Source: Mesostigma viride (lineage: Eukaryota > Streptophyta > Mesostigmatophyceae > Mesostigmatales > Mesostigmataceae). Taken from it: 64,000 bases of DNA. A program made the translations under genes and the position numbers. The notes below the pieces were generated by a model. The model made no database searches and had not been told where the DNA came from. It worked only from the letters and a program-made list of their open reading frames with translations. Where the stretch lies: assembly GCA_009746045.1 (NCBI GenBank), contig RPFO01000003.1:232501-296500 (forward strand). The letters run 5' to 3'. How positions within the stretch are numbered: position 1 is the stretch's first letter; the number at the start of each line of letters is the position of its first letter. Positions 4,163 to 50,959 of this stretch are shown piece after piece.

Positions 4163-4870
4163 GCTAGCAAATGTCACTACCTTTACCTATGCCTGACCTT
4201 ACAAGTTGAGGATGGTCTAATGTAGTGGCAAACAGGTTATTTACAACAATTCACAGTTTTCTGACATAGTTTGAGGCAACTATACTTACCAAAATGCTTG
4301 AAAAAGGCAAAAATTGCACCATTTATGCTAGCAAACGTCACTATTTTGAGATCAAACTGGGCCCAAACTTGGCCCATGGTCTAATCTAGTGGTGTTTAGG
4401 TTGCTTCCAACATTTCATAGCTTTCTGACATAGTTTGATATTGTTTAGTAGCTTACACTGAGCAAAATGCTTGAAAATGGCAAAAAATGCACCATTTATG
4501 CTAGCAAACGTCACTATTTTGACATCAAGCTGAGCCCAAACTTGGCCCATTGTCTATTCTAGTGGTGTTTAGGTTGCTTCCAATATTTCATAGCTTTATG
4601 ACGTAGTTTGATATTGTTTAGTAGCTTATACACTGAGCAAAATGCTTGAAAATGGCAAAAAATGCAGTATTTATGCTAGCAAACGTCACTATTTTGAGTT
4701 CAGATTGACCCCAAACTTTGTGCATGGTCTATTCTAGTGGTAATTAGGTTGCTTGCAAATATCCATGATGGTTTGACGTGATTTAGTACTGTTTCCTATT
4801 TATTACTATTTAATTTAATTTAAAATGACAAAAATGTACCTGTATTGCTAGCAAATGTCACCAAGATGAC
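4163..4870 (+). repeat. ~172-bp tandem array with GCTAGCAAAYGTCAC core
   Basis: The core GCTAGCAAAYGTCAC begins at 4163, 4327, 4500, 4675 and 4847, giving spacings of 164, 173, 175 and 172 bases. The middle units are very similar along their whole length (GTGGTGTTTAGGTTGCTTCC is shared); the outer ones have decayed. The same core and spacing recur at 10156-10690 and, in degraded form, at 42244-42600. I infer a repeat tied to a transposon family rather than a centromeric satellite, because each array has only about four or five units. Confidence 0.85.
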
Positions 4871-8154: not shown

Positions 8155-10131
8155 TTGAGAAATGAGAAACTGCATGAGGATGTGGTAGGGGAGGTTGAGG
8201 CGGCATGGGACCTGGTCCTTGCCATAGCCTTGAAGCTCAGGATGGGGATTAGCTATGACAAGTACAACACATTAAGGCAGCTGCTTAGTTGCATGTTTGA
8301 TGAGGCCACCCAGTCGTACCTGCCTATAGGACCACGAGCGCAGGGGCCAACTTCCCAAAGCTGCCCACCAAGCACAAGATAGCAGAGGAGATGAAAAACA
8401 TGCTAGAAGAGATGGGCATCGAGCAGAGTGAGGACGGCACGTTGGTCACAAGCAGCTTGCTGGCAGCCTTGATGCAAGACCTGCGTGCCGACCCGAGCGG
8501 GTTCAAGGGTAGGCAAAAGCTTCTTTACCAGATCTTGGGAGATGGGGCCAAGATGGCCCGGGGCTTCAAGGCACTGAGCATCGCTGGCCGCCTCATGCGC
8601 CATCAGGGCCAGCCGGGCAGTGATCGAGGTATGGATGCACCAATCCCCTATAGCAAGCTGCAGGAGCTCGTCATGTCCAAGGGGCGTGATGATGACTACA
8701 ACATCCTTGGTGAGGTCACGGAACGATTGGTGAGGGAGCTTGAGGAAATCAGGCAGGCAGGGGGGGGGTGGAGGGCAGCCTGAGGCGTGAGTTGGAGGTG
8801 GCATTGGGGGGGACCTGGCGTGGCTGCACGCCGTGCTGGGGTTGGTGGGGTGCTCAGGTACCTACCCCTGCCCCTGGTGCCACATGAGCAAGGGCCAGCT
8901 CCACGAGGGGACGCTGGGACGCGTGGTGCACGACCTGAGGACGCTAGAGGACATGCGGAAGATGGCACACGCGTATGGTGAGTTCCCATATGACTGCCCC
9001 GCGTGTGGTCTTCACTTCCACGATGAGGATGACCAGGATGAGAGTGAGCCCAGGAACCCCACACAGAGTGCGGCCTTTGCTAGGGCCCACTATGGGCAGT
9101 TCTTTGGCAGGCCACCCATCTTCAACGTCCCCCTCACCCACGTCATCCTATGCATGCTGCACATGGAGCTCAACATGGTGACAACATGGCTGCAGAGGGT
9201 AGTGCTAGACCACCTGATGGCCAAGGATGAGGACACTCTCTTGCACGTGCTGAAGGATAAGGTGCATTGTGCAGTCAAGAAAGAGCAGGTGAAGGCACGG
9301 AAGAAGACGCAGGGGAAGGGGGACTTGAGTGAGAGGGTGACGATCATCGGTAGGGAAGCCCACAGCGTGCTCAACAGTGGCGACATGCTGTTGGACATCG
9401 TGTTCCCACCAGGGCACAACATGCGCCCTGTCATGCAGGGCTCCCTAGACGCCCTGAGAGGGTTCTGGAAGGAGGTAGCCAGGCCATTTGAGGATGATGG
9501 GGTAGAGGGCAGCCCAGTCAGGCAGGGTGTGGCAGACAGGGTCAAGGCAGCTGCCATCAAGGCGTCAGATGCCCTAGTCAAAGCCACGGCAGCTGAGAAC
9601 CTCACCCTCTACTACCACATTGCGGTAGACCACCTGCCAACTGCCATCCTCAAGTGGGGTAACCTACAGTTCTTCTCTGGCCAGGCATTAGAGCACACGC
9701 ATGCACTGAAGAAGGGGGTGATGAGAACCCAGACCAACCGTCGCACCCACCCCTCCACCTGCCCCAAGGGTGAGGCCAAGCGTGCCATGGGGGTAGGGGT
9801 GCTGCAGCAGGTCACCAACGTCAGGGTGCTCCACAAGCTGGTAGATGAGAGCCTTGGGGGCAGGCCCTTGTCACAGGCAGAGAAGAAGAAAAGGAAAAGG
9901 ATGCAGCAGGGCCGTGAGAATGTGCCTCCGGGTGCATGTGGCATTGGCCATCAGCTAGCTGGCTATAGGTGTGTTATTCATGCATTGTATTATGTGCGTG
10001 TGCCCCCAAGTATGCATTCCTGCATTGTAAATATGATGCATAATGTAATGATGTGTTGTTTTGGAACCTTATATACACCAAAGTGGATGATTGCCATGGA
10101 CATGCGTGATAAAACCCTTGGAAAACCATGA
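8155..10131 (+). pseudogene. Broken transposase-like gene (RNase H-type, zinc-ribbon insert)
   Basis: Four frame segments read as one protein. 8155-8382 and 8391-8783 are helical (LVTSSLLAALMQDLRADP). A short piece in a third frame (VEGSLRRELEVALGG) follows. The long part runs to 10131 and begins GGDLAWLHAVLGLVG before the first Met at 8833. Then come SGTYPCPWCHMS and DCPACGLHF (two CxxC pairs, a likely zinc ribbon) and, near the C-terminus, WGNLQFFSGQALEHTHALKK. A conserved Asp before a CPWC insert and a late Glu in FSGQALE fit the general plan of DDE transposases with an RNase H fold. I cannot assign a superfamily. Two breaks sit exactly at G runs (8760-8768 and 8806-8812), so they may be slippage or assembly errors. 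Followed directly by a ~173-bp array. Confidence 0.55.
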
Positions 10132-10690
10132 AAAACTGCATTTTGGGGTATTTATGCTAGCATTTGTCACCAATTTGTCATCCAACCAGCCTGAAACTTT
10201 GTGGGCATGCTGCATGGGATGTGTTTAGAACATGTGCAAAGTTCCAGCTCCAACTGAGCTCATTTGGTATGCATATGTGTGATAAAACCCTTGGAAAACC
10301 ATGAAAAACTGCATTTTTGGGTATTTATGCTAGCATTTGTCACCAATTTGTCATCCAACCAGCCTGAATCTTTGTGGGCATGCTGCATGGGACGTGTTTA
10401 GAACATGTGCAAAGTCCCAGGCCCAACTGAGTTCATTTGGTGTCATTATGTATGCCTATGTGTGATAAAACCCTTGGAAAACCATGAAACTGAAAACTGC
10501 ATTTTGGGGGTATTTATGCTAGCATTTGTCACCAATTTGTCATCCAACCAGCCTGAAACTTTGTGGGCATGCTGCATGGGACGTGTTTAGAACATGTGCA
10601 AAGTCCCAGGCCCAACTGAGTTCATTTGATGTCATTATATATGCATACATGCCAGAAAGTGCTGAAAATACGGTATTTTTTGCTAGCAAA
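10080..10690 (+). repeat. ~173-bp tandem array with GCTAGCATTTGTCACC core
   Basis: Three well-conserved units and a decayed fourth. The core GCTAGCA begins at 10156, 10329, 10518 and 10682. Each unit also contains GATAAAACCCTTGGAAAACC, CATCCAACCAGCCTGAA and GGGCATGCTGCATGGGA. The array starts within the last codons of the transposase-like ORF: the sequence encoding its end (GATAAAACCCTTGGAAAACCATGA) is itself the start of the unit. Unit length and core match the array at 4163-4870, although the rest of the unit differs. Confidence 0.85.
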
Positions 10691-14384: not shown

Positions 14385-15034
14385 TGCCCCTCCTACATGC
14401 TCTTCCTGCGCCAGTGTCACCCCCCGCCTAACGGGACCGCATGCCTCCTGAACTCCTTCATCCGCCACATCCTCTTCCTATCCCCGGCCATCACTCCCAA
14501 ACAAGGCCATCTCTTGAATATCTTCTTATCTAATCGCGTGCTCTTCCTGCGCACGTGCCGGCAACCACTTGACCTACTCCCCCACAGCCTCTGCATCCCC
14601 CTGAGCCCTAGAAAAGGGGGATCCATTACCTAGGAGATTTTTGTTGGCCACCCCCGCGCCAGATCAAGGTCGCAACATCCCGACCTCGATCACACGCTCT
14701 TCCTGCGCCCAGCCGTGGCTCCCCAACACGACCGCATGTCAACATTCCTCCGCAACCATCATGTCAACCCGGCACCAGGCACACGCTCTCCGTGCGCCCG
14801 TGTCTCCCCACACTAGACACACGACATTACTGTAAGCCAATCAACGCCTTCAAGGGGTGAAAGCGAGGTGCGTGACTATTCTTCTCCACCCCTTCCTTCG
14901 CCCCATGGCTCCCCAAAGAAGCCATGTGTCAACATCAAGGTCGCCACGTTCCTTCCTCAACCATGATGTACGCACTTCCTGCGCTCGGCCCTAGCTCCCA
15001 AATAAGACGATTTGGCAATCAAGTCCTTCCTCCA
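14385..15034 (-). repeat. Decaying copies of the zinc-finger gene's 3' end
   Basis: On the minus strand, the last codons and stop of the zinc-finger gene contain GGGCGCAGGAAGAGCACGTGA (15035-15055; the copies match all or part of it). Similar copies follow downstream near 14970, 14780, 14700, 14540 and 14400, for example CGCAGGAAGAGCGTGTGATC and CGCAGGAAGAGCACGCGATT. Between them are further shared pieces such as TTGGGAG and GGAAGGA. Spacing is irregular (about 70 to 190 bases) and similarity is lower for some copies. I read this as an old tandem expansion seeded by the end of the coding exon. Confidence 0.65.
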
Positions 15035-16237
15035 TCACGTGCTCTTCCTGCGCCCCGTCGCCACGTCCAGCATATGCGCCGCCTCCTTCTTCCACTCCGC
15101 CACGCACTCCAACGGGTCCTCCTGCGCGGCCTCCAGCACCAGCGCGGCCAGCAGGCACACCTTGGTCGCCTGGAAATCAATGATCTCCTTCATGCAGAAC
15201 CGAGCGATGCGGCGCAGGGCTTTCGCCCCCGCGGCCGCGGCCTCGCAGCCCACCCAGTCTGACACGGCGCATGATGACGTGAGCGCCCCAGCGGGCTCCG
15301 CTGAGGGGATTGAGCACGCTAACGTGTCGGTGACCCCCCGCGCGATGGCTGCGTCGAGCTCCTCGTTACTGCTGGCGAGCTCGACGCGCGTCAGCCGGTG
15401 GTCGTTCACCAGCACGTTGGTCACGATCGACGCGATGTGGAGGGAGGGGATCATGACCGTCTCCGCCATCTCGTTCAGGCTCGACGCCGTGAGCGCGCCG
15501 CCACCAGTCGCGAAGAACCGGAGGAAAAACGTCTGGAGGCTGCCCCGCGCCGCCTCGGACGCCTGCGCGGCCGCCTGGGAGGGGTTGAGTGCCCGTGAGG
15601 CGTCCGTGATGGCTCGCTTGCGACGGAGGAGGCTGTACAGGCCGACCACGCAGCGGGACTTGATGAGTTCATGGTAGACATTGCTGCGTCCGGCGCGCGC
15701 ACCTTGCTGGAATGGCTCGAGCGCGCGCTTGAGTTTGGACGTCACGTACTGGATCGCGCTAATTATAGTGTTGAGCTCGTGAGAGACGTTGATCCCGCCG
15801 ATTTCCTCGGCGTCCGCGAGGACCGTCGGCCGGCCTATAAATAGCTGCTTGTCCTCCGCCTCGGTGTCCTTGCTCTCCAGCTCGAGTTTCTGGAGATCGT
15901 CCTCGAGGACCGTAGTGCCCTCGCTGGTCGCGGCCAGGGAGGAGAAGGACCCACCGGCCTTCTCGCGCTCACGGATGAACGCGTCCCACTCGGCGTCCGT
16001 CATCCGGCGCGTCGCCTCGGTCTCGGAGAACGGGTATGACCGCTGCTTGTACACGTGGGTCTGCTCGTGCGCGCGCAGGCTGGCTTTGAAGCATTTCGAG
16101 GTGCAGAAAAAGGAGCGCTCGTAGTCCTTACCCCGGGCGGCCAGCTCTTTGTGGCACTCGAGGCATTCCGGGCACTCGAGCAGCCGCGACGCGGGCTTTT
16201 TGCACCCGGAGCAGGTCACGGAATTCTTTTTGGACAT
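15035..16237 (-). CDS. Zinc-finger (C6H2/MYND-like) protein, 400 aa, host gene
   Basis: A single uninterrupted minus-strand frame of 400 codons. Residues ~8-60 form a Cys/His cluster: CSGCKKPASRLLECPECLEC, then FFCTSKCFKASLRAHEQTHV. The spacing resembles the zf-C6H2 domain at the N-terminus of type 1 methionine aminopeptidases and the related MYND fingers, but no peptidase domain follows. The remainder (residues ~130-395) is Ala-rich and predicted helical with no motif I recognise. There is no signal peptide or membrane segment. It is divergent from WDR17 with 1217 bases between the start codons. Third positions are strongly G/C, like WDR17 and unlike the AT-richer flanks. Function unknown; the finger suggests protein or ribosome binding. 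Confidence 0.85.
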   Translation of the reverse strand: MSKKNSVTCSGCKKPASRLLECPECLECHKELAARGKDYERSFFCTSKCFKASLRAHEQTHVYKQRSYPFSETEATRRMTDAEWDAFIREREKAGGSFSSLAATSEGTTVLEDDLQKLELESKDTEAEDKQLFIGRPTVLADAEEIGGINVSHELNTIISAIQYVTSKLKRALEPFQQGARAGRSNVYHELIKSRCVVGLYSLLRRKRAITDASRALNPSQAAAQASEAARGSLQTFFLRFFATGGGALTASSLNEMAETVMIPSLHIASIVTNVLVNDHRLTRVELASSNEELDAAIARGVTDTLACSIPSAEPAGALTSSCAVSDWVGCEAAAAGAKALRRIARFCMKEIIDFQATKVCLLAALVLEAAQEDPLECVAEWKKEAAHMLDVATGRRKST

Positions 16238-17454: not shown

Positions 17455-20400
17455 ATGAGGCAGATTAAACTGTTCCCTTCTGGTGTGCAGCAGTGGGTCA
17501 CCCGTGTAAGTGCAACACAGCGCTGATTTCATAGGGCTAACTTACCGCGGATTGCTTTTTGTCTGTGTGCTTGGACGCATGTTTGGATGAGCATCGCCCA
17601 GGATCTGCCGCATCGGTCTGGGACCGATTTCTGGACCAATCTGTACAGTTGGGAAAGTGTTGCTGTCATTACTTAACGAATGCATGCTAGTCGGCGGTTA
17701 ACATGGATCTTACTGCAGGTATGCGCTGCCAGCACGACCCGATTCGCCTATTGCTCGACCCTGGCCATCTACGTCTATCGACTGGAGGACTTCTCGTTGG
17801 AAAAGGTAGCAGCGAATGCACAAACTGCCGCAAAAACATTTAATCCACCAGTTGAAAGTCAGGAACAAGGCGCAGAATTACATAAACAGTCACCGAATGC
17901 CTCGGGCGCGTAATGCACGTTTAGACAGAGGATTTAAAAGCATGCAGTATCGAGGTGCCCCTAGTCAGACAAAGTTTGCACAAAGTTTGGCTCCGAATCA
18001 ATGTCTCCATGCAACCAAGCTTGCAACGTCTAGACACGTACCTCTTATGTAGCACCAACGCTGCAAAGACTAATTGTAAATCTATAAATAGAATGTCTGC
18101 CGTTCACTGCCTCAGGGCCTTTATGAATGTCTGCTGTTCACTGCCCCCTGGGGGTCACTGTCGGACCATTCCTGCGGTGTAGGTCATCGTGGGCCACGAA
18201 AAGACCATCACCGCGATTACATGGAGCCCCCATGACGACACCCTGCTGGCTGCATGCAGCACCGACAACGTCGTCAAAATCTGGAACGTGGAGTCGGAGA
18301 CGGAGGTGAGCCCATGGCTATTCTGGCACACGCCTGCTGTTGCTGTTTATCAACATCTGGAACGTGGGGTCGAATCGATGTAAGGTTATACTGATACAGG
18401 CGTTGATTTGCAGTTGTGTACTATTAGCTGAACACGGAGTCTGAAACCGAGCTGAGCCCCCTCGGTATGCTAGCAGGTATTGTTAAAGTCGAAGCTTGGT
18501 CTGCCAGCAGGTGTTCACCGTTGTGTATGATTTAAGTCGAAAGGTGGGGGCTGACGTGGAGGTGAGCCCCGTAGGATGCTGGCAAACGTCCACATTTGCC
18601 ACTGACTGCTAGTAAAGTACACCGGTAGCACATTCGAAGTAATGTATTTGTAGTAAATAGCGCTTGTGTGGTATCGATGTAGTAAATTATTTGTAGTGCG
18701 CTGCACTTTAAGTCCTCTTTGCGGTTCTCAATTTCAATCAGAAATCGTTTCTTTTCTGATTCCATGACGGCGGAATATTAGAATAATGCTGGCACAATTA
18801 TACAGTTGCATTTTATTAAAAGTGGGACATTCAGACTGAGACACAGTTGGGCTGCTATCATTCTGGGAGCTGTTTACAGAATTGCTATTCGCGGCTGTTA
18901 TATAGTACTCTACGCCCATAGCCTTGTCTGCATCTCCTGAATCTGTCCGTGTGTGGAGACCGAGTTTGTAGCCATTGGCGGGGTAGTTGTCATGCTTCTG
19001 TGGTAAACCAAAGGGGAGGCGGTAAATCAAAGGGGAGGTGGTAAACCAAAGGGGAGGCGGTAAACCAAAGGGGAGGCAGTAAATCAAAGGGGAGGTGGTA
19101 AACCAAAGGGGAGGCGGTAAATCAAAGGGGAGGCGGTAAATCAAAGGGGAGGCGGTAAATCAAAGGTGAGCTTGTATTCATTCCATGGCAGGTGCGTGCA
19201 GTTGCTGTTTATCTAGCTACATCGTAGTGACCATACATGTAGTCCTGTTGCGCCTTGTACACCTCGTGGATACCCCTTGGCACATGGAGACAGATCTCGG
19301 CCCGCTATATAATCTTACCACACCGTGGCAGCTGCATACGGTCAAGCCAACCATGTCCAGGAATCGCACCACGAGCGAGGCTTGAGTCACAGGCTCACAG
19401 CTAGCTCATGGCTCCTCACCGCCTACCCTTATCCTTACCCTCATCGCCTCGTGCTGGAAATGGGTACATCTGACCCTTCACATCCATCGGTTCCCAGGCC
19501 ACCTCTTCTTCCCCCTGCTACCCCCCCTTCCCCCCCCCCCCCCACTTCCTCGTGGCCCTTCCAACAAGGAGTCCCGGGCTCAGGTCCTATTAGGCAATAA
19601 AAGCCAAGTCAGGCCAAATCCTCTTCCCCCCTTTCCTTCCCTCCTCCCGCCCCCTTTTCCACTTCTCCCCTTTCCCTCCCCCTCCCTCCCCTCTTCCCGC
19701 TCTATTGCCCCCAAGTTCAAAAGCTGCCCATAAAAAAAAATTCCACACCATCGCGATTCGCTGACTCGCGTGATGCCATCCTTCCCCTCCCCACTTCACT
19801 CTTCCCCCCTTCTCTCCTCCCCTTCTCTCCCCCCCCCCCCCCCCCTTCCTCCCCGGTCCAGGTTCAAAAGCTGCACATCAACGAGTCCCACATCATTACG
19901 TCGCTCGAGTGGAACCTTAAGGACCCCTACCTGGTCTACATCGTGGCAGAGAACAGCATAAAGGCGTGGGACTTCGGCAAGGGGGCGGTATCCACCTTCA
20001 AGGTGAGTGCATAGTCCAGCAGTTTTTTTTTTAGAAAGGTGTTCGTATAACAAGCATTAAGGCGTGGTACTTAGGCCGTGTCCACCCTCATGGGGGCGTG
20101 GGTGCATCATACAGCAGGTCTCTTAGACGGTGCTTTTGAAGGTCTTATACAAGCTTTAGGCATGGGACTTGGGCTGTGTCCACCTCCAAGGTGGGTGCAT
20201 CGCACAGCAGTTTTCTTAGAAGGTGTTCAGGAAGGTTCTATGCAGGCATCAAGGGGTGGGGCTTGTCTAAGGAAGCGGTGTCCACCTTCCGGTGGGCAGT
20301 ATCGGGGGCGGGGGGGGGGGGTTAGATGGTATCATAATAGGTATTATGGATGGGCCAGGTGTTGCGAGGTCAAAGGTCTGCAGAAAGAAATTGAATATTC

Positions 20401-23400
20401 TCGGACATCCTTCGGTAGATTATCCTGAAAGGCAGCACGTTTACCATTGGAGCTGTGGTCTATAAGAGGCCAAGATCCGCTGGTCTGCTCATGCTCAGGT
20501 CGGCTGGGGGACATGGACGGTTGGTAGACATGGACGATTAATGCTGATAGACACCAAGGTCCGTGAAGGCGGCCAGTAACTATGGATGGTCATTGGTCCA
20601 CAGAAGTAAAAGTCCGCAGTACGAGGACCGTGGTTGGTGGCGGACTAAGCCTGAGGACACTCTTGGGCGTGGTCGCATCGGCACTCGAATTGTCTGCTTC
20701 AGAACAAGGTCACTTCCGCAACAATGTCCATGTTCACGGATAGAAGTACAGGTGTGAAGTGTGAGGCCAAGTTAGGCAGACATTAGTTCTTTGATTTAGA
20801 TGTTTACGACTCTCTCCCTGCCTCTTTTCCCATTCGTATTTTCTGCAGCTGCCTCGTTTCTCATCCACCTGGTTTGCCTCTGTCTCTGCTCATGCCCTGT
20901 CCCCCTCACGCCCCCTCACGCCCCCTCACGCCCCCTCACGCCCCCTCACGCCCTCTCATGCCCCCTCATGCCCCCTCATGCCCTCTCATGCCCTCTCACG
21001 CCCCCTCATGCCCTCTCATGCCCTCTCATGCCCTCTCATGCCCTCTCATGCCCTCTCATGCCCTCTCATGCCCTCTCATGCCCTCTCATGCCCTCTCATG
21101 CCCTCTCATGCCCTCTCATGCCCTCTCATGCCCTCTCATGCCCTCTCATGCCCTCTCATGCCCTCTCATGCCCTCTCATGCCCTCTCATGCCATCTCATG
21201 CTCTCTCATGCCCTCTCATGCCCTCTCATGCCCTCTCATGCCCTCTCATGCCCTCTCATGCCCTCTCATGCCCTCTCACGCCCCCTCATGCCCCCTCATG
21301 CCCTCTCATGCCCTCTCACGCCCCCTTTATCCCGTCTCTTTCTCCTTTCCATCCCTCTGCACTTTTTCCCTGCTTTGGCCATGCATCCCTGCCTTGGCCT
21401 CACAGGAGTTTGGGTCCAACACGGTGCACGTGCTGCGCATCAGCAAGGTGGAGCACAGCCGCATGGTAGGGAAAGTGCTTTTCAAGAAAGATTCAAGCAA
21501 TCGGTGCATGGCTCGTAAGCAGGGTGGTGCATAGCGCATCCGGCCGATGCTGCGCAGCAGCATGGTGTGATGGAAAAATTGGGGTTAATTACAATCAGGG
21601 TACATGGGGCATGCTTGAGTGAATGGAGTATTTGGTAGTAAACAGTCAGTAGCACCCCGCACAGTGATTACCATGCAGCATGAGCGGCTTCCCTAGGAAA
21701 GCCGTAGCAGGGATTTCGGTGGGTGAAACAATGTCGGCATGGAGGCGTACGGCACGAGGAGTCTGCCTCTTTGGGTGTCGACGCCTATGCATGAATGTTG
21801 CTGGCACATTTTAGCGTGGGAGGTGCGTGCGGCAACCTGAGCGGCTGTGGCTAATGAAGATGCTGCCCACGTTTCAGAATTTGGGGTGGGTTCTTTATCA
21901 CCATCACAATTTCTTGTGTACAAGCACTGTACGATCTGTATGTGGTTAGTCAAATACAATTATTGAGATACCATCTTGATCATTGTTGCACCGCTGTGCG
22001 CTGTTGCTGTGCACTGTTTGTTGTGCGCTGTTGTTGTGCACTGTTGTTGTGCACTGTTGATGTGTGCTGTCATAGTGCATTGTTTTTGTGCGCTGTTTTT
22101 GTGCATCGGTGTTGTGCGCCGCTATGTGTTGCTCTAACACGGCTGGCTCTCCCTAGCATAGCATGGAACACCATCGCCAGTGAACCTTGGTCTCCTCCAA
22201 ACAAACGCACTTGGTTACCCTCTTTGTAATAATGTACTGGGCGGCCAAACTCATGGTTCCTCTCTTTGTATTAGTCTATTGGGCAGCCACGAACATGCTT
22301 ACCCTCTTTGTATCAATCCTCGGCTGTGCCTGCGTTGGATGGACGCGTCGCTCGTGCGTGGCCGCCACATTACTTGGCCGACACGCTGCTTGCTTTGTGG
22401 TGGACACATTGCCTGCGTTCGGCCCACGCGTTGCTTGTGCGTGGCCAGGCGGTCGGCACCAGCGATGGCACGCTCCACTTCCTGAGCACGCAAGACAAGA
22501 AGAGCTCCAAGAAGAAGTTTGACCACCCGGTGAGTGGCCAGAACCAAGCGCTCCTTGTGAATAGGTAAGCTGTGCGAGAAGCTCCAAGAAGAAGATTGAC
22601 CACCCGGTGCTTGAGGGCCAGAACCAAGCGCTCCTTGTGAATAGGTAAGCTGTGCGAGAAGCTCCAAGAAGAAGTTTGACCACCCGGTGCTTGAGGGCCA
22701 GAACCAAGCGCTCCTTGTGAATAGGGTAAGCTGTGCGAGTAGCTCCAAGAAGAAGTTTGACCACCCGGTGCTTGAGGGCCAGAACCAAGCGCTCCTTGTG
22801 AATAGGGTAAGCTGTGCGAGTAGCTCCAAGAAGAAGTTTGACCACCTGGTGCTTGAGGGCCAGAACCAAGCGCTCCTTGTGAATAGGGTAAGCTGTGCGA
22901 GTAGCTCCAAGAAGAAGATTGACCACCCGGTGCTTGAGGGCCAGAACCAAGCGCTCCTTGTGAATAGGGTAAGCTGTGCGAGTAGCTCCAAGAAGAAGAT
23001 TGACCACCCGGTGCTTGAGGGCCAGAACCAAGCGCTCCTTGTGAATAGGGTAAGCTGTGCGAGAAGCTCCAAGAAGAAGATTGACCACCCGGTGCTTGAG
23101 GGCCAGAACCAAGCGCTCCTTGTGAATAGGGTAAGCTGTGCGAGAAGCTCCAAGAAGAAGATTGACCACCCGGTGCTTGAGGGCCAGAACCAAGCGCTCC
23201 TTGTGAATAGGGTAAGCTGTGCGAGAAGCTCCAAGAAGAAGATTGACCACCCGGTGCTTGGCGCATGTCCTATGGTTTCATGTTGTATTTTTGAATCACG
23301 CTCGCTTTTGAATGTTATAGTATGAATGTTATAGGGTGGAGTCACTAACCAAGCTTGACGACCCAGTGAGTGGCAGACCTCTTTGGGTAAGATCTGCTCT

Positions 23401-26400
23401 TAGATTCAGATCTGCTGATTGTGTTTTCTCATTTCATTTTGTCGCGTTACTCAACAAGCCTGACCATCTTGTGAGTGGTGTGGCGTGCGCAGGACAGGAT
23501 AGGCCGCTTGCAGCCTGTGTTTCCCCTGGTTAGGCGGCTGGAAGCGGGGTGATGTAGCCATGGATCAGTTGATTGTGGCGAGTGCATGGGAAGTACCGGT
23601 TAGATTATACTGAGAGCTGAGATAGTTGCGGGAGGTAACATGTTAGTTATGATAAAGAGGGAAGGTACTATATAGAGTATACTGTATCTAGAGAGAGGAT
23701 GGTTGAGATGGAAGATAATCATGAGAGGTGAGATATCATGGATGATCGAGAGGTTAGATAGCAAAATATGCAGACAGAATATACCATATGTAGAGTGAGG
23801 ATGGTTGAGAGGGAAAACAGAATTTGAAGGTAATTGGCTGGTCGCCCGCCGCAGTTCACCTGCTTGCGCGGTACTGTTGGGTGGCTGCATTGCAAAACAC
23901 ACATATTGTAGTAGTACATACATTGTCGGGTCTTGAATGTGCGGTAGTGTATCATTCCTAGTTTCATTTTGAATATGATTCCTTCCTGGGTGTGATCCTC
24001 CAATGGTTCACCGCCCCTCGATCTCACGGCCTGCCACTTGGTTTGCTGCCTCGTTTGGTTTGCGGCCTCGTTTGGTTTGCTGCCTCCCTCTAATCCTCAC
24101 GGCCGGCCACTTGGTTTGCCGCCTCCTTTTGTGTGCTGCCTCCCTCTATATAGTACACAGCCTGCCACTCGGTTCGCTGCCTTTTGTGGCTCGCTGCCTC
24201 TTACAAACGCTGCCATGCCACGGTTCCAAAATTTTTGCTGCACCCTCTTGCAAACGCTGCAGGTGGTAGATGTGCAGTGGGATCCTCTGTCCTCAAACTA
24301 CATCCTCGTCGCGCTCAAGAACGGCCAAGTAAGTACGCTAGCATGTAAGTAGCTGTGTAGGCTCGCTAGTTACGACCGCGGACCGTGTATACAACAGCTG
24401 TCCCTCCAAGTGCATCCTCGTCGCGCTCAAGAACGGCCCAGTATTTGTACTAAGATCCAATAGCTTTACGTGGCTATCTGCGAAAGTGGATGGTATGTGC
24501 AATAGCAGTCCCCCAGCTACCTTGTGGTGCTGAAGAGCGGCCGTGTGTATGTCTACACTGCACTAGATACTTTTGTAGACTATACTTTCATACACTATAC
24601 TTTGGTACATTATACTTTCGTACACTATACTACACTATATACTTTCGTAGACTGCGTAGGTGCCATGGGCTTGCCCATGGCACACAAACTTTTCAATACT
24701 CCATGCTGAAACGCGGACTGACATACCCGCTCTTCCACGGTGATCTTCACAGGCGGTTAGTGCGCATTGATAGGCTAGCTCGGACTGCGACCCCAAAGAA
24801 ATGCTTCGAGGTATGGAACGTGCGCTTTTGAACATAACAGACCCGGCTGCGTCCATCCCTCCCCTCCGCCCCCCCCCTCCCCCCCTCCCCCACTAGGCAG
24901 GCCTTTTTCTTCACTAGACAGAAGCGCTGAGAGGACTTGCTTGCGTGCTCTCTGGTCACTCCTAGCCACGTTTCACCGATCCTCTTGTTCCTTGCAGGCC
25001 GAAACAAGGCTTCCTCACAAGCGTCTTTGTCGATCCCCCCACTATTGGCCACTCTTCCGTTGACCGCTCTATTCCCCCACTCACTATCATCATCTGTCTC
25101 CCCCTAGGTCTCCTTGCAAAAAACAAACAAACTTGCGGACATGTGTGGGGACTAGCTCCCTTCCCACCCGTTGCCTCCTCCCTCCCCTGTGCGCCTTCCC
25201 TGCCTCCCTTCCTGTTGTGTGCCACCCTCCAACCCGTTGCCTCCTCATTCCCCTGTACTCCTTCCCTCCCCTCCTTCCTGTTGTTTTTTCCGCCCAGGTC
25301 TCCTTGGGACAGGCGCACGCACGCGCGGAGGTGAACCCCCTGCTCACAAGTTGCTTAGTAACTGCTTCCATTCCTTTCACCGCTTCCTGCCGCTTTTCCT
25401 TTTTATCCTTGCTCGCCGCCAGGTATCGCTTGAGGAGGCGGACACGTGTGCGGAGATGAACCACTTCAGCAAGCAGCCCGCGGGCCTGCGGGGCGTTGCC
25501 TGGGTGGGGACCATCCCTGGAGGTTTTATCTCTTTCAGCGACCGAACTGGTGTCGCGCGCCTCTGGAACGTGTCGCAGTCGCACCCGACCACGGTGAGTT
25601 GACTTTGCCAGCATAATGGTGTGCATAAACAGATGGGAAATGGGAGAGTCGATTTCGCTTTGGGACATGTTATACCGGGGCTCATGCTGCCTTTTGTTGT
25701 CACCGATGTGCACCAACCCGGCTCGTCTCCCTTGTCTGCCGCAGTCGCTCAAGTCGCCGCATATTAATATGTTATAAGAATATGTAATATGCTTATCTAG
25801 TTTGGCTTATGTAATTAACTGATTTTATCCACGCGTGCTTCTGTTCCTCGATTGCTTCCCGCTTCTTTCTCATTCCTGCCAGTCGCTCAAGACGCTGGGC
25901 ACAGGCATCACCGCGCTCACCTTCATCCCGGGCTCAGACCGATTCGTCTGCACGTTCAAGGTACGGCCCACTTTTGCATGTGTCTGTCTGCATCTTCGGA
26001 ATGGCTGCTTTTCAAATCTGTGCTCCCTCAAGCTATAATCCGACTGTGAGGTGTCGCACCTGCATGGAGTGGTTGGACCGCTTTCTGTACACCTTCAAGG
26101 TACAGCCGCTACTTTTGGTCTGCCCGTTCAGGGTGCTTAAACCTTAATCTATATAATCTATAACGCATATACTCGGCAGATTAGCTTAGAGTTAGCTTAG
26201 TTCGGTTTCGCGGCTTCGCCCACTTCCATCCATCCAGCAAGGGAATATGTGCTACATGATCTCCCAACGGAGTCATGTTATAATTTAATTTAATATACTC
26301 GGCCCCCCAGCCAAGGGGAGAGTAAGTTCAGTTCAGTTCCATGAACCTTCAACGTGTGTTAGGATATTATATAATTTTCCTCACATGGCCTTCCTTCCAC

Positions 26401-29400
26401 TCCCTCCCCCACCCATCCCCCAGCGGCATGGTCGGTGGTTCCTTCATCCAGTCATTTTTGTTTGCCCGCCGCCTTTTGCCCTCCACATGGCCTTTCCCCC
26501 TGATATTAATTCTTTGAATTGAATATATGCAACATCCCCCCTGTACACCCCCCAAGGACGGCATGGTTGTTTTTCTCATTCCTTCATGCCATGTGCTGAC
26601 CCACCATCTTTGCCCGCCCGCATGGGCTTCTCCCTTCCCCCCCCCCGCCCTGCCCCCCTCTCGCCCCCCCCCCCCACACACACGCACACAGGATGGCATG
26701 GTCGGCGTCTACTCGGTCAGCAAGCGGCGGCTGGAGTGGAGCACGCAGGGCGGCCACAGCGAGACGGTGTTCGACTGCAAGTTCTGCACAACCGACCCCA
26801 ACGTGCTGGCGACCGCCTCGTACGACGCCACTGTGCGCCTCTGGGACGTGGCCAGCGGCGCCAGCATAAAGACGTTTGCGACGGGCGTCAAGTGCGTGCT
26901 GTACTGCGTCGCGTGGTCCAGCGACGGGACGCGCATCGCGTCGGGGTCGTCCGATGGCAAGGTGGGTGTGGGGGGGGGAAGGGGGGGGGCGTCTGATGGC
27001 AAGGTGGGCGAGGGGGCTGTGCGGAGCCTGTTTTGGCGAGCCTATATGTCACCCAAAAGCCGAAAAATTCTTTTTAGTTATTGGCGTCGGGGTCGTCTGA
27101 TGGCAAGGTGGGCTGAATGAGAGTGAAGGTGGGGTGGACGAGAGTGGAGAGATATGAACTTATAGCCCCCCCCCCCATACAGGTGCACTCTTATTCGCTA
27201 TCCAGGTTTCTCACATCCATTACCAACGCTTTATATTCCATGCTAACGATTGGGTGCCCTTCTCGTTATCCCTGTCCAGGTGTTCATATTCGACGCCAAC
27301 GCACCTGACGGGTCCAACCCCCTGAAGGTCTTTGACGCGCACAGTGCGGCCATCTACCACATTGCATGGAACCCCGCGGAGCCCTCATTCCTGGCCAGCA
27401 GCTCCGGGGATGGCTTCCTGGCGGTGACCCGCGTGACGGACGGCACTGTGATCCAGCGCATCCAGCTGCCGGGCATGGTGTACGGGTGCGACTGGTGGCC
27501 GAGCGCCACGCGGAAGCACATCGTGGCCGTGGGGTGCCAGGTGAGGGTCATCATCAATGCCTACAGTAGGGTGCCTTCATGGTGAAGGGTTTTCTCGAAA
27601 TGTAGAGTAGCTTCAAGGTGAGGGCTGTCCTCATTAACCCATCTGCCTTCCCTCCTAACCCATCCCCCTCAATCCAACTGTCACTTCCCCTGCCCACCCC
27701 ACATTCCCATATGGACCCACCCACCCACCCACCCACCCACCCACCCACCCACCCACCCACCCACCCACCCACCCACCCACCCACCCACCCACCCACCCAC
27801 CCACCCACCCACCCACCCACCCACCCACCCAGGACGGCATTGTTCACGTGATGGACCTGAACACCCCCGGGGGGAGCGTCAAATGGGCCCTCAAGGGCCA
27901 CAAAGCCAAGGTCTTCAACGTGGCCTGGTCCCCCTTGATTGACGGCCGCCTGATGAGCGGGTCTGACGACAAGACCATCCGTGTGTGGGACGTCCAGCTA
28001 CCCACCCCGGGGACCGCCCCCACCGCGGGCACGAGTGGGAACTTCACCGAGGTGGCCGTGCTCGTCGGCCACACCAGCAACGTGCGCGCGCTCGAGTGGC
28101 ACTCGGAGCTGCCCTGGGTGGTGGTGTCTGGGTCATGGGACGCGAGCATTAGGGTCTGGGACACGAGGACCTCGGCCTGCCTCGCGGTGAGTCGGGACCA
28201 CCACGCTGACGTGTACGGTCTGACGGCGCACCCGTCGCGACCGTTTGTGTTCGCGTCCAGCTCCCGGGACACGACCGTGCGAATGTGGAGCGCCGACCAT
28301 CTGTTCCCCTCCCTCAGGGTCGACCTGCTGCTCGATTGCCTCCGTGTGGGGGGGGTGCAAGTCGGCGGGGACGGCGCCGGCGCGGATTCCAGCGAGAATA
28401 TCGGCAAGTCGTGGCGGGTCGACAACCCCGCCGTCACGCTGGCGCAGGTGCCGCCGGGATCCGCCCCGCTGGCGGTCCAGCTGGCAGGGGCCGGGTCAGC
28501 CCGCCTGCTGACCAAGCTGCGCGAGATCCTTCGAAGCCGGGCCGACTCCGCCGGTGGGTCGAGGGGTGGGGAAGGGCTATCCCCTGACGCGTTATTAGAC
28601 GCCTGCTCCGTCGCGTTTGGGTTCTTGGACGCCCCCGGTTGCGCGGCGGAGCTCTGGGAGCTGGCGCGCATGGTGGTGATGGGGAAGATGAAGGTGGGGA
28701 ACGTTCGGAAACCGGTGGTGCCCCACATGGATGACGTCAGGGCGCTCGCGGCGGCCAAGGCGGAGGAGGCGGAGAGTGTGCGGGGGGGGAAGTTCCGGGG
28801 CGTGGGCGCGGTGCGCAAGGAGGACTCGTTGCGAGAGGCGGCGGCGATCCACATCAAGCTGGGCAACGTGCGCAAGTAGGTGGATATGCATCTTGTGTAC
28901 ATAGTTCTGTGTATATAATACTGTACTGTACTGTGTGTATATAATACTGTACTGTACTGTGTGTATATAATACTGTGTATATAGTTCTGTGTGTATAGTA
29001 CTTGAATCCGGTTGTATATAGGTACGCCATGAGCGTGTGTGTATGGGCACGTCATGAGCATGCCGTCGTGATCGGTACCATCGCATGCCCTGTGCTGTGC
29101 AACGTGCGCAAGTAGGTGGCACGGGCGGGTGGGTGGGTGGGTTGACTGATAGCATAAGCATATGTTTTGAATCAGCATGTTCTATGCATGCGAAGCATCT
29201 CTTGGCTATGTGTTTATGCTGAGGAATGCCCTCACAATATGTCATGCTAGTGAGTCACACTGTCATGCTAGTGAGTCACACTATGTCATGCTAATGAGTC
29301 ACACTCTTGGTCACACTTGCTGTTCTCATCGCTTGGATCCGTGGATGGTCCCCCCACCCCCCTCGGCTGTATTCTGTGGATGGGCCTCTGCTGTCGCATG

Positions 29401-31911
29401 CCGTCCTCTCCCCTTCCCCCCCCTTCCCCTGCTCCCCCCCCCCCCCCCCCCCAACCACCATGCCCCTAACCATCACCCCCCAGGTACTGCGAGATCATGA
29501 AGGAGGTCGGTGAATGGGACGCCGCGCTGATCGCGTCCCCCGCGGTGTCGGTGGGCTACTGGCAGCAGCTTGTCGCCGAGTACGCAGCCCACAAGGAGAA
29601 TGAGGCGAAGATGGCGGCCGAAGGGCAGCTGGGGGGTGGCAGTGCCACGGTGGACTATGACGCGTTGGTGCCGCTGTTTGTGGTCTCTGCGCAGCCTCGC
29701 AAGCTGCTGTCGTTGTTCACTTCGCAAGGGGCCATGGAGGATGCATTTCTGGCCGCAAAGGTGGCCATGGAGGGGCGGTACCCCCCCCATTATGACCCCT
29801 CCATGGCAGACAGTTCCGGGGGGAAATTGGGAGATGGGAAGGGTGGGCGGATGGATGGGGGTGGCGGGGCAGGGGGGGGGGAGGGGGCGCTTGGGGTGGG
29901 GGACTTGAGGGGGATAAGGGGACAGATGGCGGAACGGTACGCGACGCAGGGGGAGCCCGTCGCGGCGGCGTGCTGCCACCTGTCGGTGGGCGACGTGGAT
30001 GGCGCGGTGGCCAAGCTGGTCAAGGGGAACTGCATAGAGGTGGGTAGTTGGCACAGCATGTCCATGTTTAAGACTGTTGGAAGAGAACTGCATCAACGTG
30101 GTTGGGTGGCATGTCAACTGTAAAACTTGGTCGGATGCTATTGCATCGAGGTGCGTGGGTGCCGCTGTAGTGAAGTGCTAAAGCCTGCTAGGGGAAGTGC
30201 ATGGAGATGGGTGGGCACGATGTCAACGGTTCAAGGCCGGCGATACGAACTGCGTAGATGTGGTTGGGACGCTTGAGTAGTGCTTGTCGATTCTCTTGTG
30301 CTTCTAGGATGGCCCTGGAAAACTAGGGCGTCATCTCCTAGCATGGTTGGAGGGAGCAGTGCAACAGAAGACCGATGTATTTGCCCCAAAAGGTCAATGC
30401 CCACCTTATGTCTAGATCCTGCCAAAGAAACATGAAAAACAGAAGCCCACTTATGTGTCCACGTCGTGTCGTGTCTTCTTTGCCTGAGTCTCTCGAGAAT
30501 GTGGTCACTGTAGCTCACGCATCTTGGAGCCCTACAAGTAATGGGGAAGCGGATCATTTCAGAGCCTCCCACGCCATTCCTCCATCCCCCCCCGCAGCCC
30601 CCCCAACTGGCCGTCTCTGTCCCCTTCCACCCACCCACCCACCCACCCACCTACCCTCGTCAATCTCTTCTCTTCCTTCAACCTTCCCCGGAATTTCCTT
30701 TTCCAGTCCTTCTGAAGCCCCCCGCCCTCCCCTACAAAAGTCCTGTTGGCTCCTCCCGCCCTACACACGTTTCCCCTCACAAATGCACGCGAGCACACAC
30801 ATACGTACACCCACCCACCTACACCCTCGCTCGCACCCCCTGCCCCCCGCCACTTCCTCAGGCTGCCCTCGCGTTGGCCACCGCACTCTCTCTCCCGCCC
30901 GACCGGATGGACAACCTCCGCGAGCTGGCGATCCTCCGCTGCCAATCCGCAGGCCTCTGGTCCCCCGCGCTCTCCTTTGCCCGCTCCCTCTCCGCCTCTG
31001 AGTCCGCGTCCACTGCAGTGCAGCGGCTCGCGGCACACTACCGCCCGTCACGCCCCGCCGACGACCCCGACGTGGCCTCCTTTTACGCGCGTGCGGGTCT
31101 GCCCGCGCCTTCCAGCTTCTCCGACGCGGCATCTCACGGGAACCGCGGGGCAGGTGGCCCCGCGGCTGTAATCCTGGCACACGCGTTGGCCCGCCAGCAC
31201 GAACAGGCCGCGCAGGCTGCGGTGGAGCACCTCCGGATGACCCTCGCGTCCCGGCCAGGGGGCATCGCAGCCAATCAGGCGTGGCCGATCGCCGACCTGC
31301 TCCCCGTGCTCCGCTCCGCCCATTGCGTCTCCGCCGAGTCCCTCCCCCCACCCCTCCGCGCCGAGTTCCTCGCCTACGTGGCGCTGCTGGCCGCTGCCCA
31401 GGCCATGCGCGACGGGCTCGCGCCACCTGTCGTCCACTACCTACTCGTGTGCGCGCGCCAGCTGGCAGGCCAGCTCGGCATGGGCGTCTTCCCCGTGTCC
31501 CCCCACGAGATGGCGCTCCGCGAGATGGAGAATCTGGCGCTCTCCGACCCGGATGCGGCCGCCCGGTCCCTGTCGGACCTCGCCCAGGGGCCCCAGGCGA
31601 GCGCCGAGGTCAAGAGGGCCGCCGAGCTGGCGTTGTCGGCGATCAGCAAGATGCCGCCAGCAGCGAGGGAGGCGCGGGCGAGGGAGGCTGGGTCACGGGG
31701 GGCGGTCTTTGTGGCGGGCGCGAGTATACCCTCGGGCGGCGTGCGGCACGTCAACCGCGTGTCGCTCATATCGGGCGAGAAGCTGCATGGGCCCGCGGTC
31801 TTGTTGGAGGACGGGTCCTCGCTTGTCTCACTTGCAGAGGCGGTCATGTGGGCGCGCGTGTGCCCCTTCTCGCCGCTGCTCACGGGCAAGCGCATGCCTG
31901 CCGTGGCATAG
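17455..31911 (+). CDS. WDR17: WD repeat-containing protein 17 orthologue, 14 exons
   Basis: Exons: 17455-17505, 17719-17805, 18183-18305, 19862-20002, 21406-21465, 22449-22529, 24263-24328, 25423-25593, 25883-25960, 26692-26961, 27280-27540, 27833-28875, 29484-30039, 30862-31911. All introns are GT-AG. All junctions are phase 0 except the one after exon 12, which is phase 2. Total 4038 nt, 1345 codons, close to vertebrate WDR17. Exon 1-2 junction VTR/VCAASTTRFAYC matches the family N-terminus. WD signatures: VKIWNV, ARLWNV, VRLWDV, IRVWDV, IRVWDT and VRMWSA (residues ~80-610). The helical C-terminus has SLREAAAIHIKLGNVRKYCE, AACCHLSVGDVDGAVAKL and, at the end, LEDGSSLVSLAEAVMWARV. The family is an intracellular beta-propeller scaffold of poorly known function. 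No frame breaks. Exon-end copies fill many introns. Confidence 0.92.
18351..18590 (+). repeat. Intron 3: three decayed copies of the exon 3 end
   Basis: Exon 3 ends ATCTGGAACGTGGAGTCGG...GAG/GTGAGCCC. Degraded copies of this exon end plus donor follow at 18351-18385 (ATCTGGAACGTGGGGTCGAA), 18430-18470 (ending GAGCTGAGCCCC) and 18541-18590 (GACGTGGAGGTGAGCCCCGT). The downstream intron bases (TGCTGGCA-like) are copied as well. Confidence 0.75.
19002..19168 (+). repeat. Intron 3: 19-bp tandem repeat, ~9 copies
   Basis: The unit GGTAAAYCAAAGGGGAGGY repeats every 19 bases (for example starts at 19021, 19040, 19059). Every unit contains GGTAAA, a donor-like string, in the sense orientation. Variation is limited to a few positions, so the array is young. 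Confidence 0.9.
20051..20310 (+). repeat. Intron 4: three decayed copies of the exon 4 end
   Basis: Exon 4 ends AAGGCGTGGGACTTCGGCAA...TCCACCTTCAAG/GTGAGTGCAT. Copies follow at about 20051-20128, 20152-20225 and 20243-20310, each with AAGGCGTGG or GGCATGGG, then GTGTCCACC, a CAAGGT- or CATGGG-type donor region and CACAGCAG. Units are about 100 bases long. The real donor is the first. Confidence 0.75.
20899..21330 (+). repeat. Intron 4: 10-bp repeat CCCTCTCATG, ~43 copies
   Basis: An almost perfect 10-base repeat, with CCCCCTCACG variants at both edges and CCCTCTCATG in the centre. It is pyrimidine-rich and lies about 75 bases before the exon 5 acceptor. Long open frames across it (up to 244 codons) follow from the absence of stop codons in the repeat, not from a gene. 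Confidence 0.95.
22485..23270 (+). repeat. Intron 6: 80/81-bp minisatellite built from exon 6 end and donor
   Basis: Ten units, the first being the true end of exon 6 and start of intron 6. Each unit contains AGCTCCAAGAAGAAG, then TTTGACCACCCG or ATTGACCACCCG, the junction GGTGCTTGAGGGCCAGAACC, and AATAGGGTAAGCTG. The first two units are 80 bases, later ones 81. Only the real junction reads CCG/GTGAGT; the copies read CCGGTGCTTG. Two further decayed copies lie at ~23353 and ~23455 and still read GTGAGTGG. An 81-base unit equals 27 codons, so several frames stay open on both strands. Confidence 0.95.
24404..24560 (+). repeat. Intron 7: two decayed copies of exon 7
   Basis: Exon 7 has TACATCCTCGTCGCGCTCAA then GAACGGCCAA/GTAAGTAC. 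A copy at ~24408-24450 reads TGCATCCTCGTCGCGCTCAA then GAACGGCCCAGTATTTG. A weaker copy at ~24503-24560 reads CCCCAGCTACCTTGTGGTGC then TGAAGAGCGGCCGTGTG. Confidence 0.8.
27717..27831 (+). repeat. Intron 11: (CCCA)n microsatellite at the 3' splice site
   Basis: About 28 tandem CCCA units run straight into the acceptor AG of exon 12, replacing the usual polypyrimidine tract. The minus-strand open frames with GWVG repeats over it are by-products. Confidence 0.95.
28905..29020 (+). repeat. Intron 12: TGTGTATATAATACTGTACTG-type repeat
   Basis: Three to five imperfect copies of GTGTATATAATACTGTACTG in the first part of intron 12. A 20-base exact copy of the exon 12 end and donor (CAACGTGCGCAAGTAGGTGG, original at 28864-28883) lies further on at 29100-29119. 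A separate CATGCTAGTGAGTCACACT repeat is at ~29240-29305. Confidence 0.8.
30080..30280 (+). repeat. Intron 13: four decayed copies of the exon 13 end
   Basis: Exon 13 ends GGGGAACTGCATAGAG/GTGGGTAGTTGG. Copies appear at ~30083-30120 (GAGAACTGCATCAACGTGG), 30137-30160 (ATTGCATCGAGGTGCGTGGG), 30187-30235 (GGGGAAGTGCATGGAGATGG) and 30243-30275 (CGAACTGCGTAGATGTGG). Some also repeat the following intron bases CATGTCAACTG. Confidence 0.75.
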
Positions 31912-44394: not shown

Positions 44395-44521
44395 AGGATA
44401 CTATTACTAGGTAGTAATACTAGGTTCTATATCTATAGATCCATAGCACGTGGTTGCTCTTTCTCTCTCTCTTCTTCCTGGGGAGGTGATGCCTGCTGTG
44501 TAAGGTACCGGTACGAGCACC

Positions 44522-44836
44522 ATGCCAACACGGTACCAAACAAGGAACGCCAGAGAGACAGAAGACGAGCTTAGGGAGAGAGATTCAGATAATAGAGAGA
44601 TAGAACCGGTAGACAACCACGAGCACGGTACAGAAGGGCTAGAGGTACCACCACAAGTCCAAGTAGAGACAGGTACAGGTGAGGTCATGGAGAGACCTGT
44701 GGAAGGCTCCCTACGATCCAGATCTAGTTCCCCAGCGGATGGGGACAATCTAGACGCCTTGACAAGGCAGGAAGAGGACAGAAGTGACCAAGAGATACTC
44801 CAGGGGGGCTCGCAGCAGCAGCAACATCAGCAGCAA

Positions 44837-44880
<44 letters not shown>

Positions 44881-46245
44881 GCAACGACAGCAACAGCAGC
44901 AGCAGCAGCAACGACCGCAGCAGCAGCAGCAGCAACCACAGCAGCAGCAGCAGCAACAACGGCAACCCCGGTTACAGCAACAACAACTCCAGACGAGACC
45001 ACAATGGCCACCATCGGATCCTGAGCAGCAGGGGACGAGCATGAAGATACCCTGCACTACCGCCATCAGCAGCCAGCCACCGGGCGGCCAACGCATCCTT
45101 GGGCAGGTCGGGGGCGGCCCCAGGGACCTCCACCGGGCCCCACACACCGGGGCAGACGCAGAGTGTCCTTCGGCAGCACGTCTCTGTTACCCACGGCGCT
45201 CTGGTATTCGGATGAGGAAGGGGAGATCCCAGGGGCAGATGGCGAGTTCGATGACCTGGAAGGGACTAACGAGGCGGACGAGGGAACTGTCACGCAGGGC
45301 CCGCCCGTTGGTACTCATAGACCACGGACCAGCCCAGGGGAGACCAGGAGCAGTGTCACCACCAGAGACGAGGAGACTCACACGCCAGTCCAGCGCCCGG
45401 CACCTCAACCGCAGCGCCCACGGGTGCTTGACCAAAGCGCGGTCCCCTCGCCAGTGCCTGCTGGCAACCTCAGCTTCAGCAGGGTGGCCTTGGATGACCC
45501 GGGGTACGAACACCCCTCATCCGTCCAGGTGCGGCGGACTCATGGTACGCCGCCCAGATCCAGCTCTCTCCCCCGGTCGCAGCCCCCCGACTTCGGCGAT
45601 ATCCCCCACGTAGACGTCGGTGGGCCCGTCACCGCCGCGGTAAAGGCCCCACCGATGCCCAATTTCAAGAATGTACCCAAGCTGCACGCGGACATGAAAC
45701 CGCGCGAGGTAGAGGAATGGGGACGCATGTGGCGACGGCAGTATACCATCTGGCGCAACCATCACAACTGGCAGCTGGCCACCAGCGATCTGATTGATCT
45801 CGTGATTAACTCCTGTATGGACCCCTCGGTGATAAGCATCTTGAACTGTGAGAGCATCGCGTCCCAGTCATACCCGCAAACCTTGGCGGAACTGATGGAC
45901 CGAGTGCGTCGCAAGCTGGTGCCCCCAGATGCTACACTCCACGAGCGGATGGCCTTCAGCAAGCTGCGCCAGGGGACCACCCCATATCGCGAGTTTCTGT
46001 CTAAGTTCGAGTCCAGCGCCGCCTACCTGGCTGACATGACCTGGTACGAGTACAAGAGCAGGTTCATCGAGGCACTCTGCCCCGAGCTGCAGGACGAGGT
46101 ATTCAAGCACTATGCTGATGTCCCTTGGGAAGAGTGGGACATCTTGAATATCCAGAGGTATCTCCTACAGGTGGCCGACGTAGTGGCTCGCGGGCGTGCC
46201 CCTCAGTGCGCCGTTTCTTCAGACCTGCTCCCCCGCGACGGGTGA
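44522..46245 (+). CDS. Gag: poly-Gln N-terminal region and capsid (two frames)
   Basis: Frame 44522-45613 begins MPTRYQTRNARE and carries a poly-Gln tract encoded by CAG/CAA repeats at ~44813-44990. Between ~45025 and 45160 the reading moves to the frame of 45163-46245. That frame holds the capsid-like region: MPNFKNVPKLHADMKPREVE, WGRMWRRQYTIWRNHHNW, TLAELMDRVRRKLV and FLSKFESSAAYL, the usual order in Ty3 gag capsid domains. The N-terminal part is acidic and Pro-rich. The frame change may be mutation, assembly error or programmed shift. The poly-Gln tract is long and unusual for a gag protein. Confidence 0.75.
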
Positions 46246-46835: not shown

Positions 46836-46939
46836 GGTAGAAAAATCAGATGGTAGCCCAGACGCGGAGTCAACTAGAGTAGAGGTAGACGTCAATAACG
46901 TGGCCGCAGACGCGTCCACCCAACCGGCGGCGCGTGCAT

Positions 46940-47441
46940 CTCAAGGAGATTCGCGGCATCTGTTTCTTTTCAGCGGAGGGTTACTGGTCCCTCCCACCGT
47001 CCTTGATCCGTATTTGAAGGAGAAAACGATCATGGACGTGAAGTTCCTGGTCGACACCGGCGCCTCCACGTCCTTCATCAACGAGGCCCTGGTGCGTCGG
47101 CTGGGCCTGGTACCCGACCTCACACCACGGCAGTATATGTCACCTACTCAGACGGTCGGCGACACCAATCGCCGGGCCTAGCAGACATCAAGGGTGTGCT
47201 GCAGGGCACGCCGGTGGACCTGGTGGCGACTATTGCGCCGTTGGGCGCTGCCGACATCATCATTGGAGTGGACTGGCTGGACAAGCAGGATGTGGACATC
47301 AGTGTGCGCCGGCGGGTAGTTTGGTTTCCGGATGGTTCATTCTGGTGCCCAGACAGCGAGTATAGGGCACAGGCCGCGGAGGTCCATAACATTACACACG
47401 AGCGCTCGGCGGACGGGCCCGACCAGCGTCCCAGATCCTGA
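46940..47441 (+). CDS. Aspartic protease region (two frames)
   Basis: The active-site motif FLVDTGASTSFI is at about 47044-47079 (VDTG at 47050-47061), in the frame that ends at 47181. The second half, IIIGVDWLDKQDVDI, is in the frame 47196-47441. VDTGAS then IIG-DWL is the standard pattern of retropepsins in Ty3 pol. The frame break lies between ~47160 and 47196. Confidence 0.8.
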
Positions 47442-50934: not shown

Positions 50935-50959
50935 CAGACCACAGCCGGTAGGGTGTAGG

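Follow-up and report, generated by a model that had tools for sequence, protein, structure and literature searches.

We identified copies of the exon end and splice donor downstream of the junction in nine of the 13 introns (3-7, 9, 10, 12 and 13) of a WDR17-like gene in Mesostigma viride. We propose, with a probability of about 0.8, that these copies result from ordinary local tandem duplication of noncoding DNA, made visible by the frozen exon, with no special splicing process. Exon-edge copying occurs genome-wide and is milder elsewhere than in WDR17.

Copies at the exon edges of the WDR17-like gene

The gene lies in the window, that is, the whole 64-kb stretch of DNA analysed here. Its 14 exons form a single open reading frame and are separated by GT-AG introns. 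The name WDR17 comes from the original prediction and is presumably correct. Exon 12, used as a query against two other sequence collections, returned no relative.

17455..31911, + strand: WDR17-like gene, 14 exons
17455-17505, 17719-17805, 18183-18305, 19862-20002, 21406-21465, 22449-22529, 24263-24328, + strand: exons 1-7
25423-25593, 25883-25960, 26692-26961, 27280-27540, 27833-28875, 29484-30039, 30862-31911, + strand: exons 8-14

Donor queries, composed of the last 40 exon bases and the first 12 intron bases, were searched in the remainder of their own intron. The queries of introns 4, 5, 6, 7, 9, 10, 12 and 13 outscore every mid-exon control window (197 to 200 per intron) and that of intron 3 is equalled by one of 197, while in the same search those of introns 1, 2, 8 and 11 are not distinct from the mid-exon controls. 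When the search was narrowed to the next 250 nt, a score of at least 16 was reached by 9 of the 13 donors, versus 18.5% of 579 intronic windows; the intronic background is 0.10 to 0.16 as a per-intron mean and 0.18 to 0.24 when pooled. The same score was attained in 4.3% of 1618 windows outside the gene and by 0.23% of 1300 shuffled donor queries, and 129 exon-interior windows compared with the exon sequence that follows them had a 99th percentile of 13.5. Drawing nine matches from one random window per intron has a P of at most 1e-5 at equal threshold, and of 5e-5 to 1.4e-3 when the background threshold is deliberately relaxed to 12 or 11. Windows were also compared by their position relative to the exon end: 100 bases upstream of it none of 7 has a downstream copy, at -40 and -20 the figure is 69% (13 windows) and 58% (12 windows), and at intron offsets from 0 to 380 it is 9-25%. 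Given that the donors exceed the shuffled and mid-exon controls and that this profile peaks at the exon end, we conclude that the pattern is real and centred there. All eight introns originally singled out (3, 4, 6, 7, 9, 10, 12 and 13) hold, and intron 5 is newly added.

18274..18599, + strand: donor array of intron 3; block from about 18274, repeated near 18350, 18430 and 18534; gap of 2 nt between block and first copy
19952..20294, + strand: donor array of intron 4; block from about 19952, repeated near 20049, 20158 and 20246
21411..21576, + strand: intron 5 donor copy, at about 21509-21576; absent from the original list
22498..23262, + strand: intron 6 donor array; near-perfect, 81-bp unit, 9.4 copies, 98% matches
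24264..24581, + strand: donor array of intron 7, repeated near 24398 and 24491
25918..26117, + strand: intron 9 donor copy, at about 26057-26117
26938..27134, + strand: donor array of intron 10, repeated near 26985 and 27084, the far copy non-contiguous
28858..29119, + strand: donor copy in intron 12 at 29094-29119, matching at 25 of 26 bases; 236 nt away, with sharp edges, non-contiguous
29986..30275, + strand: donor array of intron 13, repeated near 30074, 30127, 30183 and 30247

The duplicated block, comprising exon end, donor and intron start, runs straight into its own copy in introns 3, 4, 6, 7 and 13 (in intron 4 the alignment stops at the query end, 7 nt before the first copy), and this contiguity indicates tandem duplication. 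Same-orientation contiguous copies are thus found in these five introns and not at the far copy of intron 10 or in intron 12. Alignments place both exon end and intron start within the blocks of introns 3, 4, 6, 7, 9 and 13. The positions first given for intron 12 (28864 and 29100) and intron 10 (26953, 26995 and 27099) proved exact; 24408 in intron 7 should read about 24412, and 25739 at the exon 9 acceptor about 25740. The divergence claimed to rise along each series does so in intron 7, but not in intron 4 (58, 76.5 and 52 with distance) or intron 3 (42.5, 42.0 and 42.5).

Copies were also found on the acceptor side:

19672..19791, + strand: acceptor-side copy before exon 4
25261..25350, + strand: acceptor-side copy before exon 8
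25736..25757, + strand: acceptor-side copy before exon 9, passing the mid-exon control and failing the wider-query shuffle control
26388-26451 and 26536-26567, + strand: two weak acceptor-side copies before exon 10
27182..27229, + strand: weak acceptor-side copy before exon 11

The acceptor queries of introns 3, 7 and 8 outscore all 194 to 199 controls, and those of introns 9, 10 and 11 are matched in score by 7, 13 and 3 of 193 controls, the intron 11 match being a CCCA repeat. With a wider query, introns 3, 7, 9 and 10 exceed the 99% shuffle level and intron 8 fails. At a score of 16, acceptor copies are present in 2 of the 13 introns. Of the acceptor-side copies predicted before exons 8 and 9, the former (intron 7) passes both controls and the latter (intron 8) the mid-exon control alone.

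Exon edges elsewhere in the genome

The scan of exon ends originally proposed for all genes was run on samples only. The genome sampled comprises 2243 contigs totalling 439.9 Mb. Searching it for the Pfam kinesin-motor domain yielded 129 exon-level matches, of which 70 were chosen before any intron was seen and 60 were analysed; we chose mostly matches ending inside the domain and skipped contigs resembling second copies. The donor places are predicted from sequence alone, and several exons come from one gene. Copies are present at 15 of 60 donors, 8 of 57 acceptors (three loci lack upstream sequence) and 157 of 1179 intronic windows; for windows placed 80-140 nt ahead of the donor, the share copied in the intron is 0 to 1.7%. 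Donors exceed intronic windows about twofold, with a P of 0.001 unadjusted and of 0.16 under a lax threshold that allows for double fading. The difference between donors and acceptors has a P of 0.17. Among the first 40 exons, copies occur at 12 of 40 donors, 7 of 37 acceptors and in 75 of 720 intronic windows; the last 20 exons have fewer (donors 3/20, acceptors 1/20). Five of the 12 donor matches in the first 40 exons adjoin their copy within 5 nt (L031, L034, L040, L045 and L047), including a 127-nt unit with 97% identity over 126 nt and a gap of 0 in L031, and the other seven have gaps of 14 to 159 nt. One kinesin intron (L042, G000:C1502:243610-244510) holds several fading copies of a single junction, CATCACG/GTGGGTGG. 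In a further stretch (L002, G000:C1691:222501-232500), 5000 of the 10000 bases are N.

We also examined 220 kb beside the window using a simple exon finder trained on WDR17, with genes picked by eye. Six neighbouring genes, which appear to resemble L-aspartate oxidase, threonyl-tRNA synthetase, RPA and lysyl oxidases, provided 26 exons with a coding score of at least 18, with copies at 7 of 26 donors and 6 of 26 acceptors; some of these ends are doubtful, as for one exon that runs into an array. Across the whole 220 kb, 5.1% of 3469 windows have a copy. In a lysyl-oxidase-like gene (joined L004-L025, 120098-120546), a copy of the exon end and donor was mistaken by the exon finder for a separate exon. 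Compared with a genome rate of 25%, the 9 of 13 donors of WDR17 are an outlier (P 0.001), and some excess from choice is expected, as this is the gene in which the effect was noticed; part of it may be a genuine local or edge effect.

Introns with donor copies are longer. In WDR17 they average 1028 nt (nine introns) versus 293 nt for those without (four introns; P 0.0056), and among the kinesin introns the medians are 1122 nt with a donor copy (10) and 601 nt without (24; P 0.0038). The kinesin lengths are distances between matches for 34 of the 60 exons, taken with donor scores known beforehand; 15 exons without a listed neighbour were left out, as were 11 set aside by hand where an exon seemed to be missing or the next match was far away. 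Tandem duplication thus probably makes introns grow, a cause that we read from the observed correlation.

The only other host gene recognised in the window is intronless and is followed by a comparable series.

15035..16237, - strand: intronless gene with a MYND-like (zf-C6H2) zinc finger; open reading frame from the first ATG, Pfam match below the family cut-off
14399..15054, - strand: fading copies of the coding end and stop codon region of the zinc-finger gene; original at 15029-15054

The coding-end window of this gene scores 16.0 downstream of the stop codon. Exact repeats of a 13-base core of the coding end lie at 14696, 14540 and 14399, and imperfect ones at 14972 (one mismatch) and 14785 (two mismatches). 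Allowing two mismatches, the core has 9 matches in the window including the original, versus 2.3 expected and a maximum of 6 in 100 shuffles. Three wide alignments at the same end (51.5-54.0) lie above the 99% shuffle level (50.0) and below the largest shuffle (59.5). That a gene without introns has a similar series beyond its stop codon indicates that the copies are not restricted to splice junctions. The WDR17 stop codon scores 12.5, with nothing over its shuffle level. Seven further ends of long ORFs in the window were scored: that at 10131 has a copy (score 42), and the other six score 6.5-10. Tandem arrays of 173 bp lie at 10102-10628 and 4290-4758, and the former starts inside the end of the long ORF 8791-10131, so that this coding end is duplicated downstream. 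Start codons have no upstream copies (scores of 9.5 for WDR17 and 9.0 for the zinc-finger gene).

Elsewhere in the window, an LTR retrotransposon-like block (44504-51000) contains a gag-like ORF and an aspartic protease (Pfam match), as well as reverse transcriptase and integrase-like ORFs recognised by eye. At 505-675, a 31-bp tandem pair (505-563) is accompanied by the same unit, roughly reverse-complemented, at 617-675, possibly a mobile element end.

Origin of the copies

We propose that the turnover of noncoding DNA in this genome is driven by frequent tandem duplication at short range, with block sizes of about 40-130 bp where the copies are contiguous, as in several introns. Blocks falling wholly within exons would be removed by selection, as their absence suggests, and blocks wholly within introns would decay on both sides. 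Blocks crossing an edge may be tolerated as long as the outermost true signal (the first donor, the last acceptor or the first stop) presumably stays in use. With the exon side frozen by selection, such a copy would fade on one side only and could remain visible up to about twice as long as an intronic one, as simulation supports. Repeated events would leave copies of differing age, and the copied donors would be by-products. Slippage-like duplication filtered by selection on the junction had been one of the causes originally considered, and it fits the contiguous units in several introns and the scarcity of copies from deeper exon sequence.

Simulations of uniform duplication with frozen exons, in six settings picked after 60-setting simulations of WDR17, gave donor rates of 0.226-0.339 at backgrounds of 0.125-0.209. 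The nearest setting has 0.236 for donors, 0.228 for acceptors and 0.125 for the background, versus 0.25, 0.14 and 0.13 in the kinesin sample, in which acceptors (14%) are thus below the simulated 23%. At low duplication rates no uniform setting approaches WDR17. High past rates followed by quiet gave 9 of 13 donors with a background of at most 0.16 in no more than 2 of 30 runs in any of the 60 settings; very high past rates, with mean backgrounds of 0.18-0.22 that are nearer the pooled WDR17 value, gave 9 of 13 donors in up to 9 of 30 runs. Unlike in the data, donor copies in the uniform simulation are independent of intron length, and introns therefore seem to differ in their amount of past duplication. 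Other local copying may also contribute, given the gaps at 7 of the 12 kinesin matches and the non-contiguous copies of introns 10 (far copy) and 12.

Alternatively, coding edges, above all 3' edges (donors and stop codons), may be hot spots of tandem duplication beyond the intron rate. The 9 of 13 donors of WDR17, the 25% of donors versus 13% of intronic windows at the 60 kinesin exons (P 0.001 unadjusted), the preponderance of donors over acceptors (15/60 versus 8/57) and the score of 16.0 at the zinc-finger stop codon all point this way. Yet the kinesin excess is non-significant under the lax background (P 0.16), as is the contrast of donor with acceptor (P 0.17), the WDR17 stop codon (12.5) passes no shuffle level, and only the end at 10131 (score 42) among the seven other long-ORF ends has a copy, the rest scoring 6.5-10. 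We regard this alternative as unlikely. Its stronger form, in which 3' coding edges are true hot spots, introns grow mainly from exon boundaries and long introns are stacks of fading edge copies, strikes us as doubtful. An exon-anchored ratchet, in which the conserved exon stays recombinogenic and throws off copies by unequal exchange, would account for the serial copies and the WDR17 excess, but in the simulated settings that ran to completion its donor hits did not exceed those of the uniform model, and we consider it very improbable.

The original prediction also raised the possibility of decoy or alternative donors, and copies might be retained as decoys or spares that regulate splicing. 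Hand-picked older copies gave a hint of conservation of the donor core (85.9% versus 74.4% for the exon flank, P 0.016, with one interval misaligned), which vanished once copies were chosen by their exon part alone. In 19 copies found in this way, the core matches at 6.05 of 9 positions (67%), compared with 3.98 of 9 at random places, and 13 of the 19 retain GT, against an average exon-part identity of 88% that is inflated by the selection of copies; the core is thus kept no better than the flank. In addition, the exon extension would contain an in-frame stop at 21 of the 25 listed WDR17 copied donors, eight of which belong to one array. A regulatory role of this kind is accordingly most improbable. 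Least credible of all is seeding by splicing or by reverse-transcribed RNA, which the original prediction had also offered. It would fit the presence of copies at junctions in most WDR17 introns, but several copies directly abut the original as tandem blocks, the intronless gene has a comparable series beyond its stop codon, and intron starts are unlike the start of the next exon in the 13 introns. As the copies include the intron start, spliced cDNA was not their template. Acceptor copies likewise count against such seeding, as does a donor excess of about twofold, close to what freezing of the exon side would give.

Relation to known systems and implications

Intragenic tandem duplication reportedly shapes introns in other settings, with Zhuo et al. 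2007 said to have treated introns from tandem arrays and Gao and Lynch 2009 internal gene duplication. Within WDR17, the junction queries of other introns score at most 13.0, and there is thus no shared family inside the gene. In searches of open-licence papers for exon-edge copies in introns, no listed title or abstract opening describes the pattern.

PMC2812944 describes tandem repeats internal to human genes of segmental duplications, located at exon-intron boundaries. As in that system, tandem blocks cross exon-intron edges and affect intron structure here. The human repeats concern recent paralogs and new introns or alternative splicing, whereas we find young and old copies, in existing introns, at about a quarter of the sampled donors. 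According to PMC3443670 and PMC2891723, introns may be gained by tandem genomic duplication of an exon segment bearing AGGT, a process that resembles ours in that duplication touches splice sites. That model predicts that the intron start resembles the start of the next exon and the intron end resembles the end of the previous exon (PMC3443670, PMC2891723). This cross similarity is absent from the 13 introns (scores of 5-8.5 and 3-8), and we rejected intron gain by exon-segment duplication. Introners likewise change many introns, but they share one sequence among genes, whereas here each intron copies its own exon; PMC9860276 is a paper on such elements.

At about a quarter of the sampled donors, the adjoining exon end is found again downstream. 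We know of no other genome with such a proportion, the present genome being the only one measured. Gene finders are at risk from these copies, as the exon finder used here called copied junctions exons. With one side held constant by the exon, each copy would be a datable fossil of a duplication, and the growth and turnover of introns may thus be measurable from a single genome.
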